Source: a virus
Length of the DNA: 20,681 nucleotides
Reading direction: 5' to 3' (one strand)
IMG/VR virus record: IMGVR_UViG_3300027754_000521
Location: 1-20,681 of that record
In this document: positions 5,314 to 20,271 of the stretch, one piece after another
Numbering within the stretch: position 1 is the stretch's first letter
How the letters are laid out: each line of letters opens with the position of its first letter
Notes under the pieces: generated by a model
The model's input: the letters and a program-made list of their open reading frames with translations, nothing else
Database searches by the model: none
Told to the model about the DNA's origin: nothing
Translations under genes and position numbers: made by a program

Positions 5314-8300
5314 CTAACTAAAAGCAATGGTTATACTGGATACGGGGGTTGGATCTCCCTTGTATCGGACAATCACATACACTTCATTATATGCCGATTC
5401 CACATAAATACCATCGGCGTTTCTCACCGGCATTGTATAAGTAGTACTTGCCAAACTACCACCAGTGTTACCATACAACGCGATGGTTGAACCAAAGGGA
5501 TTTTGCCCATCGGTATTTGCTGTTAAATTTCCAACAAAGTTTGATATGGTTTTTGTTGGATCATAGAATCGTGCAGTGGTTAATGGAGTACCACTGGCGG
5601 TGCTACCACTTACAGACGATTCAAATAATACCAATGCGGCAACAGAATTACTTCCTGAAGTTTGCCAATCGGATAATACTTGTCCTGCTGTTATGGTCAT
5701 TGCGGTTTTGGTACCAGACGTAGTAAACTTACGAATATAATATTTGTAATCGCTGGTACTACTTGGATTGGTTAACCAATATCCATAGGTGCCGCCGGGC
5801 TTGACTACATATCCGGGTTTTACTTGTAAGTCGGTATTGCCCAAGGTATAAAATGCCGATGAGGTATTCCATGCACTACCACTAAATGTTAGTACTGCAT
5901 CCGTTGCTTGAATGCGATAGGCTTCCCCAACAAATGATTCTACTAGTGCAGTAGATGTGTCTGTGGATTGTCCCGCCCCATAATAGGCAAGACCCCCACT
6001 GGCGGCTGGCTGTCCAAATGCGCCGGCGGTGTGGAAACTAACGGTGCTACTTTTTGCCGTGGCACTACCGTTATAATTATATCCATTTACCGTAAAGGTA
6101 AACGTAGATGATCCCGTACCGATTTGGCTTACATTGTTTGTTGCGCCGGGCGCAAAGACGTATGCCCCGCCTAATTTGATAATATCATCTTCTTTTGGAA
6201 TCGTTGACGATGCACGGGCAGTTGTTCCTGTGGAATCAAACACCGCGTTCACCGTAGAAATTGTACTGGGTGTACCAGCGGACATTGCAACGGATATAAT
6301 ACCACTGGTATTGGTTACCGTTGTAGCAGTAACCGTAGCAATAGTACTGGCATAATACAGCGGATTAAATACTCCTGTAACCGAGCTTGAAATTCCGTAC
6401 GTGGATCCACTTAAGTATGGAGCACCACTCAATGATCGTGAGGTGGCAGTTAATGCCGTAATCGTAGTGCTGCCAGTTGCTGGAGTTTGTGTAGGTATAT
6501 TGGTACTAATAGTTGTTGTGGGTGCCCAGAATATTTCCACATTACTTGCGATAGGAGTGCTATAATTTCCTGAACTACTAGCAATTGCAATAGAAGCAGA
6601 AATATGATAATATCCACTTGCACTTACGCCACTTGCCGACCCACTGTATAGATATGGAGAAAATACGGTTGCGTATTTTCCATCCTGATATGCTGCCGGA
6701 ATAACTGCCGGATTGGCGGTATTGATTTTCGCAAGTGAAACCCCGTTAGTAGTTCCTGCGCCTGTTTGGGTAATAATTTGTCCAGAACTTGATGTATCCG
6801 TATCTGTTTTTGCACTGTTATTTTTAAATCTAAATGTAAATGACCCAGACACACTGAAATCCGTGGGTGTACCCGATAACAATGGACCCACTCCAAAGAG
6901 TTGTGTATCTACCGAGGAAGATACCGTTGTAGATCCTGCAGATACTGACGTATAGGTATACGTATAATTTGCATTATAGATTGGTGTAATACCAGAAAAT
7001 ATTGCACTACCGCTGGTAGCGAATCCTTTCGTATTTAAATAATTAATCGTTGCATTACTACTTGCACTAGGAATTCTACCGGTCAGTGCTGTGCCTGTAC
7101 CAGTGCCGCCTGTATTTGACGTATAGGTGCTATAAGTTTTTGTATTTGGTGCGGCGTCGGGCGCGGAGGATGATAATAATCCTGCTACGAAACGCAATAT
7201 TTCAGAAATATCTGTTTGTGGAGTAAAATTATTAAAGTATGACCCGTTTAAACTGGATTGCCAATTATTTGATGTTGGCATGCCCACATTAACATTAGAC
7301 GCTGAAATTTTACCTGTTAGACTACCAGATACACCACTACCACTTACATAGAGTGACCCCGTGATAACGGCTGACCCACTAAAGGGGAATCCTGTACCGG
7401 TGCTTCCCGATATATTAAGTGCGTAGGATGCAGTGGTTGCATATGATGCGGTGGTTCCTGATAACGCATTGAATTGAGTAGAACTACTGATTGCACCAGC
7501 AGGCATTGGTCCTGTAGAACCCGTAACACCTTGTGGTCCTGTTGGTCCGGTTGTGCCTTGTATACCAGTAGCACCAGTAACACCGACAATACCTTGTGGT
7601 CCAGTTGGTCCAGTGATGCCTTGTATACCGGTTGGTCCCGTGATGCCTTGTATACCAGTAGCACCAGTAACACCGTCAATACCTTGTGGTCCTGTGGAAC
7701 CCGTGATGCCTTGTAGTCCTGTTGGACCAGTGATGCCTTGTGGTCCTGTGGAACCCGTAACACCTTGTGGTCCTGTTGGACCGGTTGTGCCTTGTATACC
7801 GGTTGGTCCGGTGGTACCTTGCGAGCCTGTTGGACCAGTGATGCCTTGTATACCAGTAGCACCAGTAACACCGTCAATACCTTGCGGTCCTGTTGGTCCG
7901 GTGGTACCTTGCGAGCCTGTTGGTCCGGTGATGCCTTGTATACCGGTTGGACCGGTTGTGCCTTGTATACCGGTTGGACCAGTGATACCTTGTGGTCCAG
8001 TTGGTCCAGTGATACCTTGTGGTCCGGTTGGTCCAGTGATGCCTTGTATACCCGTTGCACCGGTGGTACCTTGTGGTCCTGTGGGTCCGGTTGTGCCAGA
8101 CCCTGCATTGAGTGCGTAACTTGCAGTTTGTGCGTAGGATGCAGATACCGCACTGTCCATTGACCCACTAACTCGCAATGCATATGAGGCGGTGAGGGCG
8201 GTGTCAGCAACCGTGATAAATGACCCCGTACCAACACGGGGTGCAATATTAGATTGATCAACTACGACATTATACGAATCACCTTTATCTATAACAACAG

Positions 8301-8334
8301 TTATATTAGGGATATCCAACTTAATATTACTCAT
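5314..8334 (-). CDS. Large collagen-like fibre/adhesin protein (1006 aa)
   Basis: Largest gene in the window. Residues 1-45 ([18 protein letters not shown]...) are a unique N-terminal head. Residues 46-80 contain TASYAL and [15 protein letters not shown] motifs seen in the other fibres. Residues 83-277 are about 65 unbroken Gly-X-Y triplets, mostly in 9-residue units such as GITGPTGPQ. After another [16 protein letters not shown] motif comes a ~650-residue Ser/Thr/Gly-rich, aromatic-containing region with no motif I can name, probably several beta-domains forming the tip; it ends [20 protein letters not shown]. Position directly after the tail tube and a small beta-sandwich gene suggests a baseplate- or tail-associated adhesin. 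Its ATG is 3 bases after the upstream stop, with no good Shine-Dalgarno, so translation may depend on coupling. Other open frames across the collagen tract are by-products of the repeat. Confidence 0.82.
7504..8088 (-). repeat. Collagen-like Gly-X-Y tract (about 65 triplets, 27-bp units)
   Basis: A direct repeat of 9-base triplet-of-codons units, organised in imperfect 27-base (9-residue) modules of the form GPTGPQGIT or GPTGIQGTT, with occasional GIDGVTGAT and GSTGPQ variants. The [12 protein letters not shown] module occurs twice and a closely related [12 protein letters not shown] once, a higher-order duplication. Synonymous variation between units (GGT/GGA, CCG/CCA/CCT) shows the array is not freshly expanded. 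Because no unit contains a stop in several frames, this array makes long false open frames on both strands. Confidence 0.92.
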
Positions 8335-16220: not shown

Positions 16221-17522
16221 TTATAGAATTCCTGCGAGTAGTTGTAGACGCTTTGCGACTGTGTTTTCTTCTAAAATTTCCTTCTTTGGTGCGGTACTTG
16301 CGGTTCGCTTACTTGCTAACCCTTCGGTAACGACCTTTGATGATGTTGCACGGCTCTTGAATGACTTAGCTGCTACCGTTAAGGTTTCAACTAATGTGGT
16401 ATATACCATCTTGACTTCACGAACATTGACAGCACGATCAAATGATTCTAGGATACGTACCTTTTGTTCGTTGGTCAAACCTTCCTGACGGAAGATACGA
16501 TTTGTATATAGGAGCTTTGCATTTAGAAGGTTGACTTCTTGTAGCTTGCCTCGTAGGACGTTTACAACCTCACGATATTCTGCAAGTTCATTTTTGAGAG
16601 CTTCCATCTTAGCAGCAATTGTTGATGCGTCTGGATGTTGCATTGCGGCGTCCTGATCAGGATGTTGCATTGCGCCATCTTTCCCATCTGCTTCTAATTC
16701 ACGAAGGATTGCTTCCAAATCAAGTTCTTCTTCACCTTCACCTTCTCCTTCTCCATGACCCTTATCCATGCCCATATGCATTGCGTCCATCTTAAGTGCT
16801 GAATCGCCATACTTATGACCATTTGCTGCTGATGGAGCGTCGATAGCTTCATCTTCTTCACCATGTGCCTTCATATCACCACCCTTAACATCGGCATTGG
16901 CAAAACCTGACTTTGCCATGGTTGCAGACTTGTCCATACCTGCGGCTGCTGGTGTATGCGCCTTGTCGGTTGGGTCAACGATAGTTTTATCGTCTTCTTC
17001 ACCTAGACCTTCTTCACCTTCTTCTTCATCATGTCCTGAAAGTGACTTAATATCTTCTTCTAATTCCTTGATTACTTCGTCAAGGTCAAAATCCTTTTCT
17101 GACCAATCATTGTACCAATCTGTTGATGAATCCTTCTGGCCTTCACCACCTTGGTCGATATCTGACGAATCAAATGCGTCTACTGATGGTTCCTTATTAT
17201 CAGCGCCACCAATTGTTGATGTATCTGCTGGACTCGTACCACCGACTGCTGTTGCATCTTGGAATGGAGTTTCCTTTGCAGTACCTTCATCTTTCATTGC
17301 CCCATCTACTGGTGCTGGTGCTTTCTTTTCAGCACTGTCATCAGTCATCTTGGTATCTTCTTCTTCGTATGCTTCTGCACGAAGGCGACGAGCAAGCATT
17401 GACTTGATCTGAGGTGTGAATGTTTCTTCTAATGCAATCTTTGCATTTGCGATAGCGGTCTGACGGACAGCTTCTGCATCTGCAATGGCTTGCTTAAGAA
17501 GTTCGTTCGTAATTTGTGCCAT
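16221..17522 (-). CDS. 22: Prohead core scaffold protein (T4 gp22-like)
   Basis: 433 residues. Forms the temporary inner core of the prohead and is later degraded by the gp21-type protease. N-terminal helix with Ala/Gln (ELLKQAIADAEAVRQTAIAN), then a long acidic disordered middle (about 50-297; runs of Glu/Asp/Gly including EEEGEEGLGEEDD and GEGEGEGEEELDLE, and a duplicated AMQHPD). The C-terminal helical region holds the family signature: LAEYREVVNVLRGKLQEVNL then LNAKLLYTNRIF (about 314-344), ESFDRAVNVREVKMVYTTL. Possible protease sites of the L/I-x-E type occur (IKE, LRE, ILE). It directly precedes the capsid gene (19-base gap), as in T4. Its 136-base leader is the longest gap in the window and contains two hairpins. 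The expected acidity makes similarity searches of the middle unreliable; the C-terminus carries the identification. Confidence 0.92.
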   Translation of the reverse strand: MAQITNELLKQAIADAEAVRQTAIANAKIALEETFTPQIKSMLARRLRAEAYEEEDTKMTDDSAEKKAPAPVDGAMKDEGTAKETPFQDATAVGGTSPADTSTIGGADNKEPSVDAFDSSDIDQGGEGQKDSSTDWYNDWSEKDFDLDEVIKELEEDIKSLSGHDEEEGEEGLGEEDDKTIVDPTDKAHTPAAAGMDKSATMAKSGFANADVKGGDMKAHGEEDEAIDAPSAANGHKYGDSALKMDAMHMGMDKGHGEGEGEGEEELDLEAILRELEADGKDGAMQHPDQDAAMQHPDASTIAAKMEALKNELAEYREVVNVLRGKLQEVNLLNAKLLYTNRIFRQEGLTNEQKVRILESFDRAVNVREVKMVYTTLVETLTVAAKSFKSRATSSKVVTEGLASKRTASTAPKKEILEENTVAKRLQLLAGIL

Positions 17523-17658: not shown

Positions 17659-17877
17659 TTACCACTCGGCTGGTTTTTTCTTTTCTTGCTTTTTTTCATC
17701 TCGGATGCGTCGGCGTAGTGCTTCCTGCCGCTTGAGAATTTTTTTCTTTGACCGCTTTACATAAAACTCACGCCGCTTAACTTCATTGAGAATTTCCGAT
17801 TTCTTCACCAATTTTGAAAACAACCGAAGTGCTCGTTCTAAATCACCAATACTATCACCTTTAACTTCTACGTACAT
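17659..17877 (-). CDS. rpsU: Ribosomal protein bS21 homologue, phage-encoded
   Basis: 72 residues from ATG 17877 (E. coli bS21 has 71). bS21 is a late-joining small-subunit protein near the mRNA exit/anti-Shine-Dalgarno region and aids initiation. The hallmark is visible: ALRLFSKLVKKSEILNEVKR then REFYVKRSKKK (16-46), parallel to the bacterial [27 protein letters not shown], followed by a Lys/Arg-rich helix (ILKRQEALRRRIRDEKK). A longer frame beginning with TTG at 17883 exists, but AGGAGG abuts that codon and sits 6 bases from the ATG, so the ATG is the start. The Shine-Dalgarno overlaps the stop of the HAD gene, giving coupling. The gene lies between the prohead protease and scaffold genes, so it should be expressed with the head module. 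Known in other phages; probable role is to bias host ribosomes towards phage mRNA. Confidence 0.9.
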   Translation of the reverse strand: MYVEVKGDSIGDLERALRLFSKLVKKSEILNEVKRREFYVKRSKKKILKRQEALRRRIRDEKKQEKKKPAEW

Positions 17878-17887
17878 ACACAACCTC

Positions 17888-19019: not shown

Positions 19020-19382
19020 CTAAATCTCCGAGTATATCTCTGGATGTAAATATCTAAATTTACGCATTAAAACTCCTGCTAGTGCGTTTGCTTCATTTTC
19101 CATAAACGACCCGTCACTACCATCGGCGGGTATATTCATTTCGCGTTGCTTATGATGCACCAATTCATGGCATAATGTACGACAAACATCAACAATATGC
19201 CGACCACTATTGTACACCCGTATTTCATCAGTATCTGTTGAATACACACCAAAACTTAATTGTGTTTTTATAAAATTTGGGTCATTAACAATAATGACTT
19301 TTTGTGGCAACGCATTTAATTCAAGTTGCGATGCCACAAATTTTACAATTTCATTTAAGTATTGCTTGTGGCTTGCGTTCAT
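19020..19382 (-). CDS. Small zinc-metallopeptidase (HExxH)
   Basis: 120 residues. CHELVHHKQRE places the zinc/catalytic motif H72-E73-x-x-H76 in a helix. The downstream FMENEANALAGVLMRKF provides a glutamate (E97, possibly E95) as third ligand about 20 residues later, as in gluzincin/ImmA-like minimal peptidases. Before it, FGVYSTDTDEIRVYNSGRH is the usual edge strand. No signal peptide, so it acts in the cytoplasm or the virion. All catalytic residues are present and the length equals a bare catalytic domain. Substrate unknown: candidates are host regulators, a phage structural precursor, or cell-wall-linked targets. It lies 3 bases after the dockerin-like gene and 1 base before the DUF3008-like gene, so the three are probably co-translated. 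Confidence 0.82.
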   Translation of the reverse strand: MNASHKQYLNEIVKFVASQLELNALPQKVIIVNDPNFIKTQLSFGVYSTDTDEIRVYNSGRHIVDVCRTLCHELVHHKQREMNIPADGSDGSFMENEANALAGVLMRKFRYLHPEIYSEI

Positions 19383-19385
19383 GTA

Positions 19386-19661
19386 CTATGATTTTTTCTT
19401 TTTCTTTGTTATTACGGCTTGAACTTTCTTGGTAATCTTCTTGCCAACAACGACAGCATCCTGAATGTCTACCTTACCGTCTTTGTTAACATCGGCAACT
19501 TTTGTAAGTACTGCTACTGCATCCTTACCATCAATCGTACCATCCTTGTTAACATCAGCAACTTTTTTAATTGCAATGCTAACTAATGATTTGTTGCCAT
19601 CCTTATTAACCCACCAAATAATTGCACCTACTACCGCAAGAACTACTAATGTAATTAGCAT
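19386..19661 (-). CDS. Membrane-anchored protein with two dockerin-type/EF-hand calcium loops
   Basis: 91 residues. Residues 2-18 (LITLVVLAVVGAIIWWV) form one hydrophobic membrane segment. Then two 21-residue repeats follow, each with the dockerin type I / EF-hand loop D-x-N-x-D-G-x-(I/V)-D-x-x-D: D36-V-N38-K-D40-G-T-I-D44-G-K-D47 and D57-V-N59-K-D61-G-K-V-D65-I-Q-D68. A degenerate third loop (VNKDGNKS, 18-25) abuts the membrane. The tail is Lys-rich (KKITKKVQAVITKKKKKS). By the positive-inside rule the C-terminus should face the cytoplasm. Dockerin pairs normally bind cohesins in cellulosomes; here a calcium-binding or scaffold role at the host membrane is inference. AAGGAG, 5 bases from ATG, is a good ribosome site. 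Lies between the prohead protease and a metallopeptidase gene. Confidence 0.82.
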   Translation of the reverse strand: MLITLVVLAVVGAIIWWVNKDGNKSLVSIAIKKVADVNKDGTIDGKDAVAVLTKVADVNKDGKVDIQDAVVVGKKITKKVQAVITKKKKKS

Positions 19662-19683
19662 AGAAACTCCTTAAATATAGGGA

Positions 19684-20271
19684 TTATTTCAACTCGCCTA
19701 GAAAATCATAAATGAGCGTGTCAATACGAGAATACGGGGTAACAATTGCGTTCGCCGTATTCTCGTTGATGAATGCACCTTGTGTTGATGGGTTTGATAC
19801 AATATCAAAACAAATAAGACTGAAGTCTTCTTGCACTTCTACTGTGTTCTCACTCATTTGCTTAACTGACCCTACCCCACGAGATGATACACCCAAACGA
19901 ATATTGTTCTTGATTAATTCACGAACAATATTTCCCGATGGCGTAGAAAGAATTTCAATATTTCCACGAACATCAGCACCTTCAAACCATAAATCCGTAA
20001 CATTGCAGCATACATTCTTAAGATTAACTATAGGACTTTCTGGATGATCTAGTTCACCTAATGCACGGCGTTGTACTACGAAATTGTTCTTGTATGTTGT
20101 TGCTTCACGAGCTAAAATATCTTTTGGATACACACGACCATTTTGATTTTGGTGATCTGCGCGTTGTAAAACAACATTACGAAGCGTTAATGGCTTTGTA
20201 ATATCAGCCGCTTCAGTAATTAATGAAGTGTCATAGGTAATGATATTATATTCTACGAGTAACGATTGCAT
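19684..20271 (-). CDS. 21: Prohead core protease (T4 gp21-like)
   Basis: 195 residues (T4 gp21 212). Serine protease of the herpesvirus-assemblin type that digests the scaffold and trims the capsid protein during head maturation. Family motifs in order: QNQNGRVYPKDIL (41-53), as in the N-x-N-x-R-x-YP gp21 element; ALGELDHP with catalytic H76; LWFEGADVRGNIEI (94-107); and LGVSSRGVGS (126-135) containing the catalytic serine (S129 or S130). FDIVSNPS, near the end of the core, is also typical. It stands five genes upstream of its substrate genes for scaffold and capsid; in T4 the three are adjacent. The ribosome site is weak (CTGGAAC). All expected catalytic residues are present. Confidence 0.94.
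   Translation of the reverse strand: MQSLLVEYNIITYDTSLITEAADITKPLTLRNVVLQRADHQNQNGRVYPKDILAREATTYKNNFVVQRRALGELDHPESPIVNLKNVCCNVTDLWFEGADVRGNIEILSTPSGNIVRELIKNNIRLGVSSRGVGSVKQMSENTVEVQEDFSLICFDIVSNPSTQGAFINENTANAIVTPYSRIDTLIYDFLGELK

Follow-up and report, generated by a model that had tools for sequence, protein, structure and literature searches.

In canonical type I dockerins, two loop-helix segments stand in tandem with their loops about 30 residues apart, and phage i-spanins carry lysine or arginine residues (K/R) before their transmembrane (TM) segment. EfhP (PA4107) of P. aeruginosa has one N-terminal TM helix and two EF loops 27 residues apart, and is predicted to be periplasmic (PMC4053335), while p16.7 of phage phi29 is an integral membrane protein for which a role in bringing phage DNA to the host membrane has been proposed (PMC4974454). 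Prohead assembly in T4 begins on the inner membrane and requires gp40 (PMC9958956). The small phage gene described here encodes a protein that invites comparison with each of these systems.

The window, as we call the whole 20,681-nucleotide stretch that was analysed, is identical with its virus record (IMGVR_UViG_3300027754_000521), which holds nothing beyond it. Its module genes mark it as a T4-like phage: besides the prohead protease they encode DUF3008-like, HAD, bS21, acidic scaffold-like, gp23 capsid and tail sheath proteins, and the capsid protein is closest (51-52% identity) to those of Flavobacterium phage immuto and Microcystis phage Mel-JY01. The scaffold-type protein (16221-17522), which belongs to the same module as the small gene, is very acidic. 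Freshwater Bacteroidetes phages encoding bS21 have been described (Chen et al. 2022, PMC9723584); like the window, they have a terminase-portal-protease-capsid region and a bS21 gene, but theirs lies on the opposite strand. In the window the bS21 gene (17659-17883, minus strand) shares the strand of the structural genes, has an AGGAGG Shine-Dalgarno sequence and likely starts at the ATG at 17877. A link between bS21 and the small gene was set aside: bS21 was found in 9 of 14 contigs but is frequent in such phages anyway. Another protein of the window, 1006 aa in length (5314-8334, minus strand), contains a long stretch of collagen-like G-x-y repeats (GPTGPQG), and a shorter collagen-like G-x-y repeat protein lies at 1217-2098. 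The small gene and its surroundings have the following features:

19386-19661, minus strand: small membrane protein ORF, 91 aa, complete, with two dockerin/EF-hand-type loops
19667-19672, minus strand: Shine-Dalgarno sequence AAGGAG
19608-19658, minus strand: N-terminal transmembrane helix, residues 2-18, with no K/R ahead of it
19521-19556, minus strand: metal-type loop 1, DVNKDGTIDGKD, residues 36-47
19458-19493, minus strand: metal-type loop 2, DVNKDGKVDIQD, residues 57-68; this final loop is found in all members
19389-19457, minus strand: basic amphipathic helix (by hydrophobic-moment test) and lysine tail, residues 69-91
19684-20271, minus strand: gp21-type prohead protease (Peptidase_S77, E = 7.6e-27), directly upstream of the small gene
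19020-19382, minus strand: HELVHHKQ putative metallopeptidase, directly downstream; weak metalloprotease match (phrog_87, E = 2.6e-4)

The ORF starts with ATG, 5 nt from its Shine-Dalgarno sequence. An earlier note had described its product as a membrane tether with a dockerin-like double loop, and this description holds: residues 2-18 form a hydrophobic helix (mean Kyte-Doolittle 2.74), and residues 36-47 and 57-68 are EF-hand-type loops of 12 residues, with ligands at positions 1, 3, 5, 9 and 12, glycine at 6 and a hydrophobic residue at 8. The 21-residue spacing of the loops and the lysine-rich tail after them are both borne out, the tail having 23 residues with 39% K/R and ending in KKKKKS. 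The position of the ORF between a prohead protease and a metallopeptidase was likewise confirmed, with Peptidase_S77 on one side and the HELVHH protein, whose match is weak, on the other. Shuffling the protein 200,000 times gave one strict loop in 3 cases and two loops in none, and in all six frames of the window the only strict loops are the two in this ORF. Against its closest homologue (L001) the ORF has a dN of 0.13 and a dS of 0.33, and by this comparison it is under purifying selection.

Relatives were collected by scanning viral contigs with loop-containing peptide patterns; this gave 54 distinct proteins, of which 53 were aligned, in 30 clusters at 60% identity (sequences inside one cluster are not independent), and about 25 further members came from loci after the protease. 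The carriers are uncultured T4-like phages of up to 365 kb, whose hosts are assigned by inference only. Members consist of a membrane helix, a linker of variable length, the loop or loops and a basic tail; the helix is present in all but L113 (52 of 53). The proteins stand alone and are 65-173 aa long, with one loop in 24, two in 29 and three in one of the 54, spaced 17-39 residues apart. All 14 contigs of 98-365 kb contain the small gene, 13 of them having been picked as carriers, and each carrier contig has one copy, extra matches being the same ORF or a different protein. In INPHARED, tblastn found chance matches only, though low-complexity masking may hide some, and in PHROGs no family was convincing: the strongest match (E = 2.7e-6) was that of phrog_18963, with 11 members, to the loop-tail part of a two-loop member. 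The gene is indeed unusual for a phage, as had been supposed; INPHARED gave no relative, and the PHROGs matches are weak and partial. A genome scan for a bacterial source returned five Clostridia/Ruminococcus-type loci and one Desulfatirhabdium locus. Throughout, absence is weak evidence, because the contigs are fragments. On these sequence comparisons, the window ORF is no one-off: it belongs to a family that is conserved and has no name.

Two other kinds of protein came up alongside the family. One is soluble, 290-400 aa long and devoid of a TM helix, with several EF-type loops (DVNNDGKVDKND among them), and is encoded by relatives in which no small gene follows the protease (L205-L208, e.g. 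L207:1423-2616, plus strand); it is also matched in G028, G029 and G031, and more weakly in G027 and G038. The other comprises short helical proteins whose genes run divergently to the loop gene (L002:3489-3779, L010:512-730, L026:3436-3654 and L030:3510-3827, all minus strand), which form two similarity clusters and match no Pfam family. The idea that the divergent neighbour (in L002, L009, L010, L011, L026 and L030) is phasin-like was dropped, as the five tested gave no Pfam support; a resemblance to lanmodulin was also set aside, being weak and with unlike loops.

A search based on the protease recovered 80 head-module relatives, and 27 distinct proteins of the head-module group were compared part by part. 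Mean pairwise identity and dN/dS were 0.82 and 0.10 for the loop, 0.56 and 0.21 for the tail, 0.42 and 0.48 for the TM helix, and 0.42 and 0.52 for the linker; by both measures the loop is the most constrained part of the protein, and it is lost in none of the 47 small genes that directly follow the protease. The earlier note had held its reading to be wrong if the loops vary while the hydrophobic segment is kept; given these values for loop and TM helix, with no loss in 47, that case came out reversed. In the 83 loops of 53 proteins, N at position 3 and D at position 5 are invariant, G occupies position 6 in 82 loops, and position 12 holds D or E. Conservation in this wider set is partly imposed, because its members were found by loop-containing patterns, which themselves partly fixed positions 1, 6 and 12; the protease-anchored set is free of this bias, save for a preference for loop-bearing ORFs among several candidates. 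GRKP/RGR motifs occur in the tails of 7 of the 30 cluster representatives, compared with 0.11 in shuffles.

None of the 53 members has K/R ahead of the TM helix, while all 53 have K/R within residues 17-26. By the positive-inside rule, K/R found only after the helix strongly suggests an N-out/C-in topology with cytosolic loops and tail, a call for which charge rules only were used; so oriented, the loops would lie in the cytosol, where calcium is low. Behind the last loop, the chain has the character of an amphipathic helix (with a mean z of 1.56 relative to shuffles), its hydrophobic moment peaking at 100-119 degrees in 53 of 78 cases, and the loop spacings (17, 21, 28, 32, 35, 36 and 39) have a helical phase in common (p about 0.003 by the Rayleigh test, and 1e-4 when compared with random spacings). 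Two AlphaFold models have helices between and after the loops; with a pLDDT of only 61-63, they carry no argument.

The T4-type late promoter is TATAAATA in T4 and KVP40, and NATAAATA in S-PM2 (PMC2984593). Its core, TAAATA, lies 19-41 nt ahead of the start codon in 35 of the 54 members, with 0.8 expected, and in 17 of 98 other Shine-Dalgarno-preceded ORFs of the same loci. By context, it is present in 24 of 27 members beside UvdE/Kds genes, 8 of 8 in Clp neighbourhoods, 0 of 10 in the primase operon, 1 of 3 in the head module and 2 of 6 elsewhere, so that the UvdE and Clp contexts hold 32 of the 35. Since so many members carry a late-promoter core of their own, we regard transcription of the family gene late in infection as strongly suggested; the late promoter also makes an early idea, that of a replication tether, less likely. 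The window gene itself lacks a TAAATA late promoter and is presumably co-transcribed with the protease. Late expression of the protease region is known from related freshwater phages, in which a hypothetical gene lying downstream of the protease may share its transcript (PMC9723584).

We suggest, with a probability of roughly 0.4, that the protein is a late inner-membrane tether which is stiffened by its metal loops and binds a polyanion through its basic helix; that it tethers something at the host cell membrane is probable. The N-terminal helix would anchor it in the inner membrane, with loops and tail on the cytosolic side. Each loop would take up a divalent ion, either Ca2+ or the Mg2+ of the cytosol, and the metal-filled loop would act as a stiffened elbow that nucleates the following helix. 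The polyanion bound by the basic helix and tail could be phage DNA, an anionic lipid surface or an acidic protein of assembly, for instance the scaffold—three candidates that the sequence data do not separate—and it would be kept at the host inner membrane through the phase from assembly to lysis. No AT-hook is among the reported Pfam matches of the family. In its way of working the family would come closest to membrane tethers of the kind of phi29 p16.7, also a phage-encoded membrane protein, whose type the TM helix and charge pattern of the family fit; the comparison is confined to the way of working, and p16.7 has no EF loops and serves the replication of a protein-primed phage.

The placement of the gene differs between lineages. 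In 47 of the 80 head-module relatives the small gene comes immediately after the protease, namely in every locus with a protease identity of at least 82% and enough downstream sequence, plus L198 and L199 (78%); in most relatives with 76-80% protease identity this site has no small gene, and the metallopeptidase comes next after the protease. In G028, the phage behind L172, the small gene is likewise missing after the protease and is found in a lysis cassette, alongside a holin-like ORF with two TM helices, a secreted DNA/RNA nuclease (Endonuclease_NS, 4.9e-41), a lipase, a GH19 endolysin (phrog_181, 1.4e-71) and an amidase. Nuclease, class 3 lipase, endolysin and amidase lie there in one stretch (L209; G028:C1:8237-14600). 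G040, the phage behind L155, has the same cassette neighbours with a 3-bp gap at the site of the small gene, which in this phage stands after the protease. The gene is single-copy and mobile, occupying the protease site or the lysis cassette among close relatives. In other lineages it is found beside UvdE and KdsA genes, in a primase/ThyX/RNR operon, or in a ClpS/ClpP/ClpX/SprT/bS21 neighbourhood (several of these names were assigned by eye, SprT and bS21 by Pfam). Because the neighbourhood varies between lineages, it implies no partner. Lysis timing and assembly at the membrane, both named in the earlier note, stay in play, the gene being late and lying in a head module in one lineage but among lysis genes in a close relative.

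The G028 cassette makes lysis the main rival to the tether. The protein might be an accessory of the holin, antiholin or spanin kind, whose loops read the entry of ions as the membrane fails and so set or execute lysis; it is small, late and single-TM, with a basic tail as in holins. Like Rz-type i-spanins (PHROGs), it combines an N-terminal TM helix with a helical remainder, and weak Rz-like spanin profile matches occur in several, if few, members (best 3.5e-4; best holin match 0.042). These matches do not place the family among lysis proteins and may reflect TM-plus-helix composition, and the window protein matches no lysis family of PHROGs. The charge pattern is opposite to that of i-spanins, with no K/R ahead of the TM helix. 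L014 encodes its own spanin pair (phrog_739, 2.1e-10; phrog_812, 3.8e-7) apart from the family protein, which is thus not the i-spanin there, and G028 has its separate holin-like ORF. With the gene in the head module in 49 loci (the window, L013 and the 47 protease relatives), we consider a lysis function unlikely.

These same loci could point to a membrane anchor for prohead assembly that replaces T4 gp40, its basic tail capturing the acidic scaffold or the portal. The gene sits directly behind the prohead protease in 47 of them, a very acidic scaffold is encoded in the module, and the gp40 profile PF11113 (Phage_head_chap) matches neither the window protein nor anything in 14 related contigs, which makes a gp40-like role conceivable, although PF11113 may simply miss a divergent gp40. 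The parallel to gp40, which serves T4 in assembling proheads at the inner membrane (PMC9958956), is partial: gp40 has no EF loops and no sequence relation to the family. Most other lineages keep the gene away from head genes, and close relatives have it in the lysis cassette; as the neighbourhoods do not favour it, we believe this replacement to be improbable.

Free calcium is higher outside the cytosol than inside, and a periplasmic calcium sensor like EfhP, oriented N-in/C-out with calcium-loaded loops and a tail touching the outer membrane or cell wall, would profit from this. EfhP offers a precedent in its single N-terminal TM helix and two EF loops 27 residues apart, predicted to be periplasmic. 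It is, however, a cellular protein with the N-in/C-out orientation predicted, and no basic, lysine-rich tail has been described for it; the charges of the family, with K/R before the TM helix in 0 of 53 members and just after it in all, are the reverse of what that orientation needs, and we hold such a sensor to be quite improbable.

There remains the name dockerin. The window protein scores 32.2 bits against Pfam Dockerin_1 (gathering score 22.9, E = 1.2e-7) and 22.8 bits against EF-hand_1, just below the cut-off of 25.4, so that of the two profiles proposed as a check, the first was passed and the second fell short. Of 53 members, 51 match Dockerin_1 at E <= 0.1, some below cut-off (e.g. L203, 16.7 bits). 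The best PDB sequence match is the ScaH dockerin (E = 4.4e-6); the best Foldseek match, dockerin 2vn5, is not significant (E = 1.5, from a low-confidence model). With type I dockerins (PF00404) the family shares the loop signature D-x-N-x-D-G-x-[IV]-[DN]-x-x-D and a short helix after the loop. In place of a fixed loop pair about 30 residues apart, however, it has one to three loops spaced 17-39 residues apart (21 in the window), to which a cohesin-tuned dockerin fold is ill-fitting, and its members stand alone, with a membrane anchor and basic tail and without attachment to a secreted enzyme or structural protein. The suggestion of a cohesin-like partner at the membrane found no support, as cohesin (PF00963) was found in none of the 19 family-bearing contigs searched, five of them 100-358 kb long, and loop number and spacing vary. 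Dockerin membership is thus doubtful—profile and loop agree, while loop number, spacing, architecture and cohesin partner do not—and we do not file the family as dockerin. That the protein is a true dockerin, with a cohesin-bearing partner docked to it at the membrane, is, despite the Dockerin_1 score and the ScaH match, very improbable in view of the missing cohesin, the 24 of 54 members with a single loop, the foreign spacing and the insignificant Foldseek match. As a separate observation, the sole cohesin match was a secreted cohesin-domain protein of Flavobacterium phage immuto (L031:1447-2178; PF00963, E = 2.5e-10); an 843-aa open frame in the genome of this phage also matches dockerin weakly.

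We return to the late inner-membrane tether as our tentative reading. An odd single ORF has become a defined, testable family of environmental T4-like and large phages, which current annotation overlooks or would label 'dockerin'; EF-type loops in a late phage protein that faces the cytosol would be surprising. We speculate, well aware that this is a long shot, that such late inner-membrane tethers form a phage-wide, hitherto undescribed class in which the metal loops are an ion switch coupling assembly or lysis to the state of the membrane: if so, the cytosol would be low in ions during assembly, and the entry of ions once the membrane fails would alter the hold on DNA, proheads or membrane. 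The family may offer a handle on the long-standing question of what keeps the assembly, DNA or lysis machinery at the membrane in phages without a recognisable gp40.
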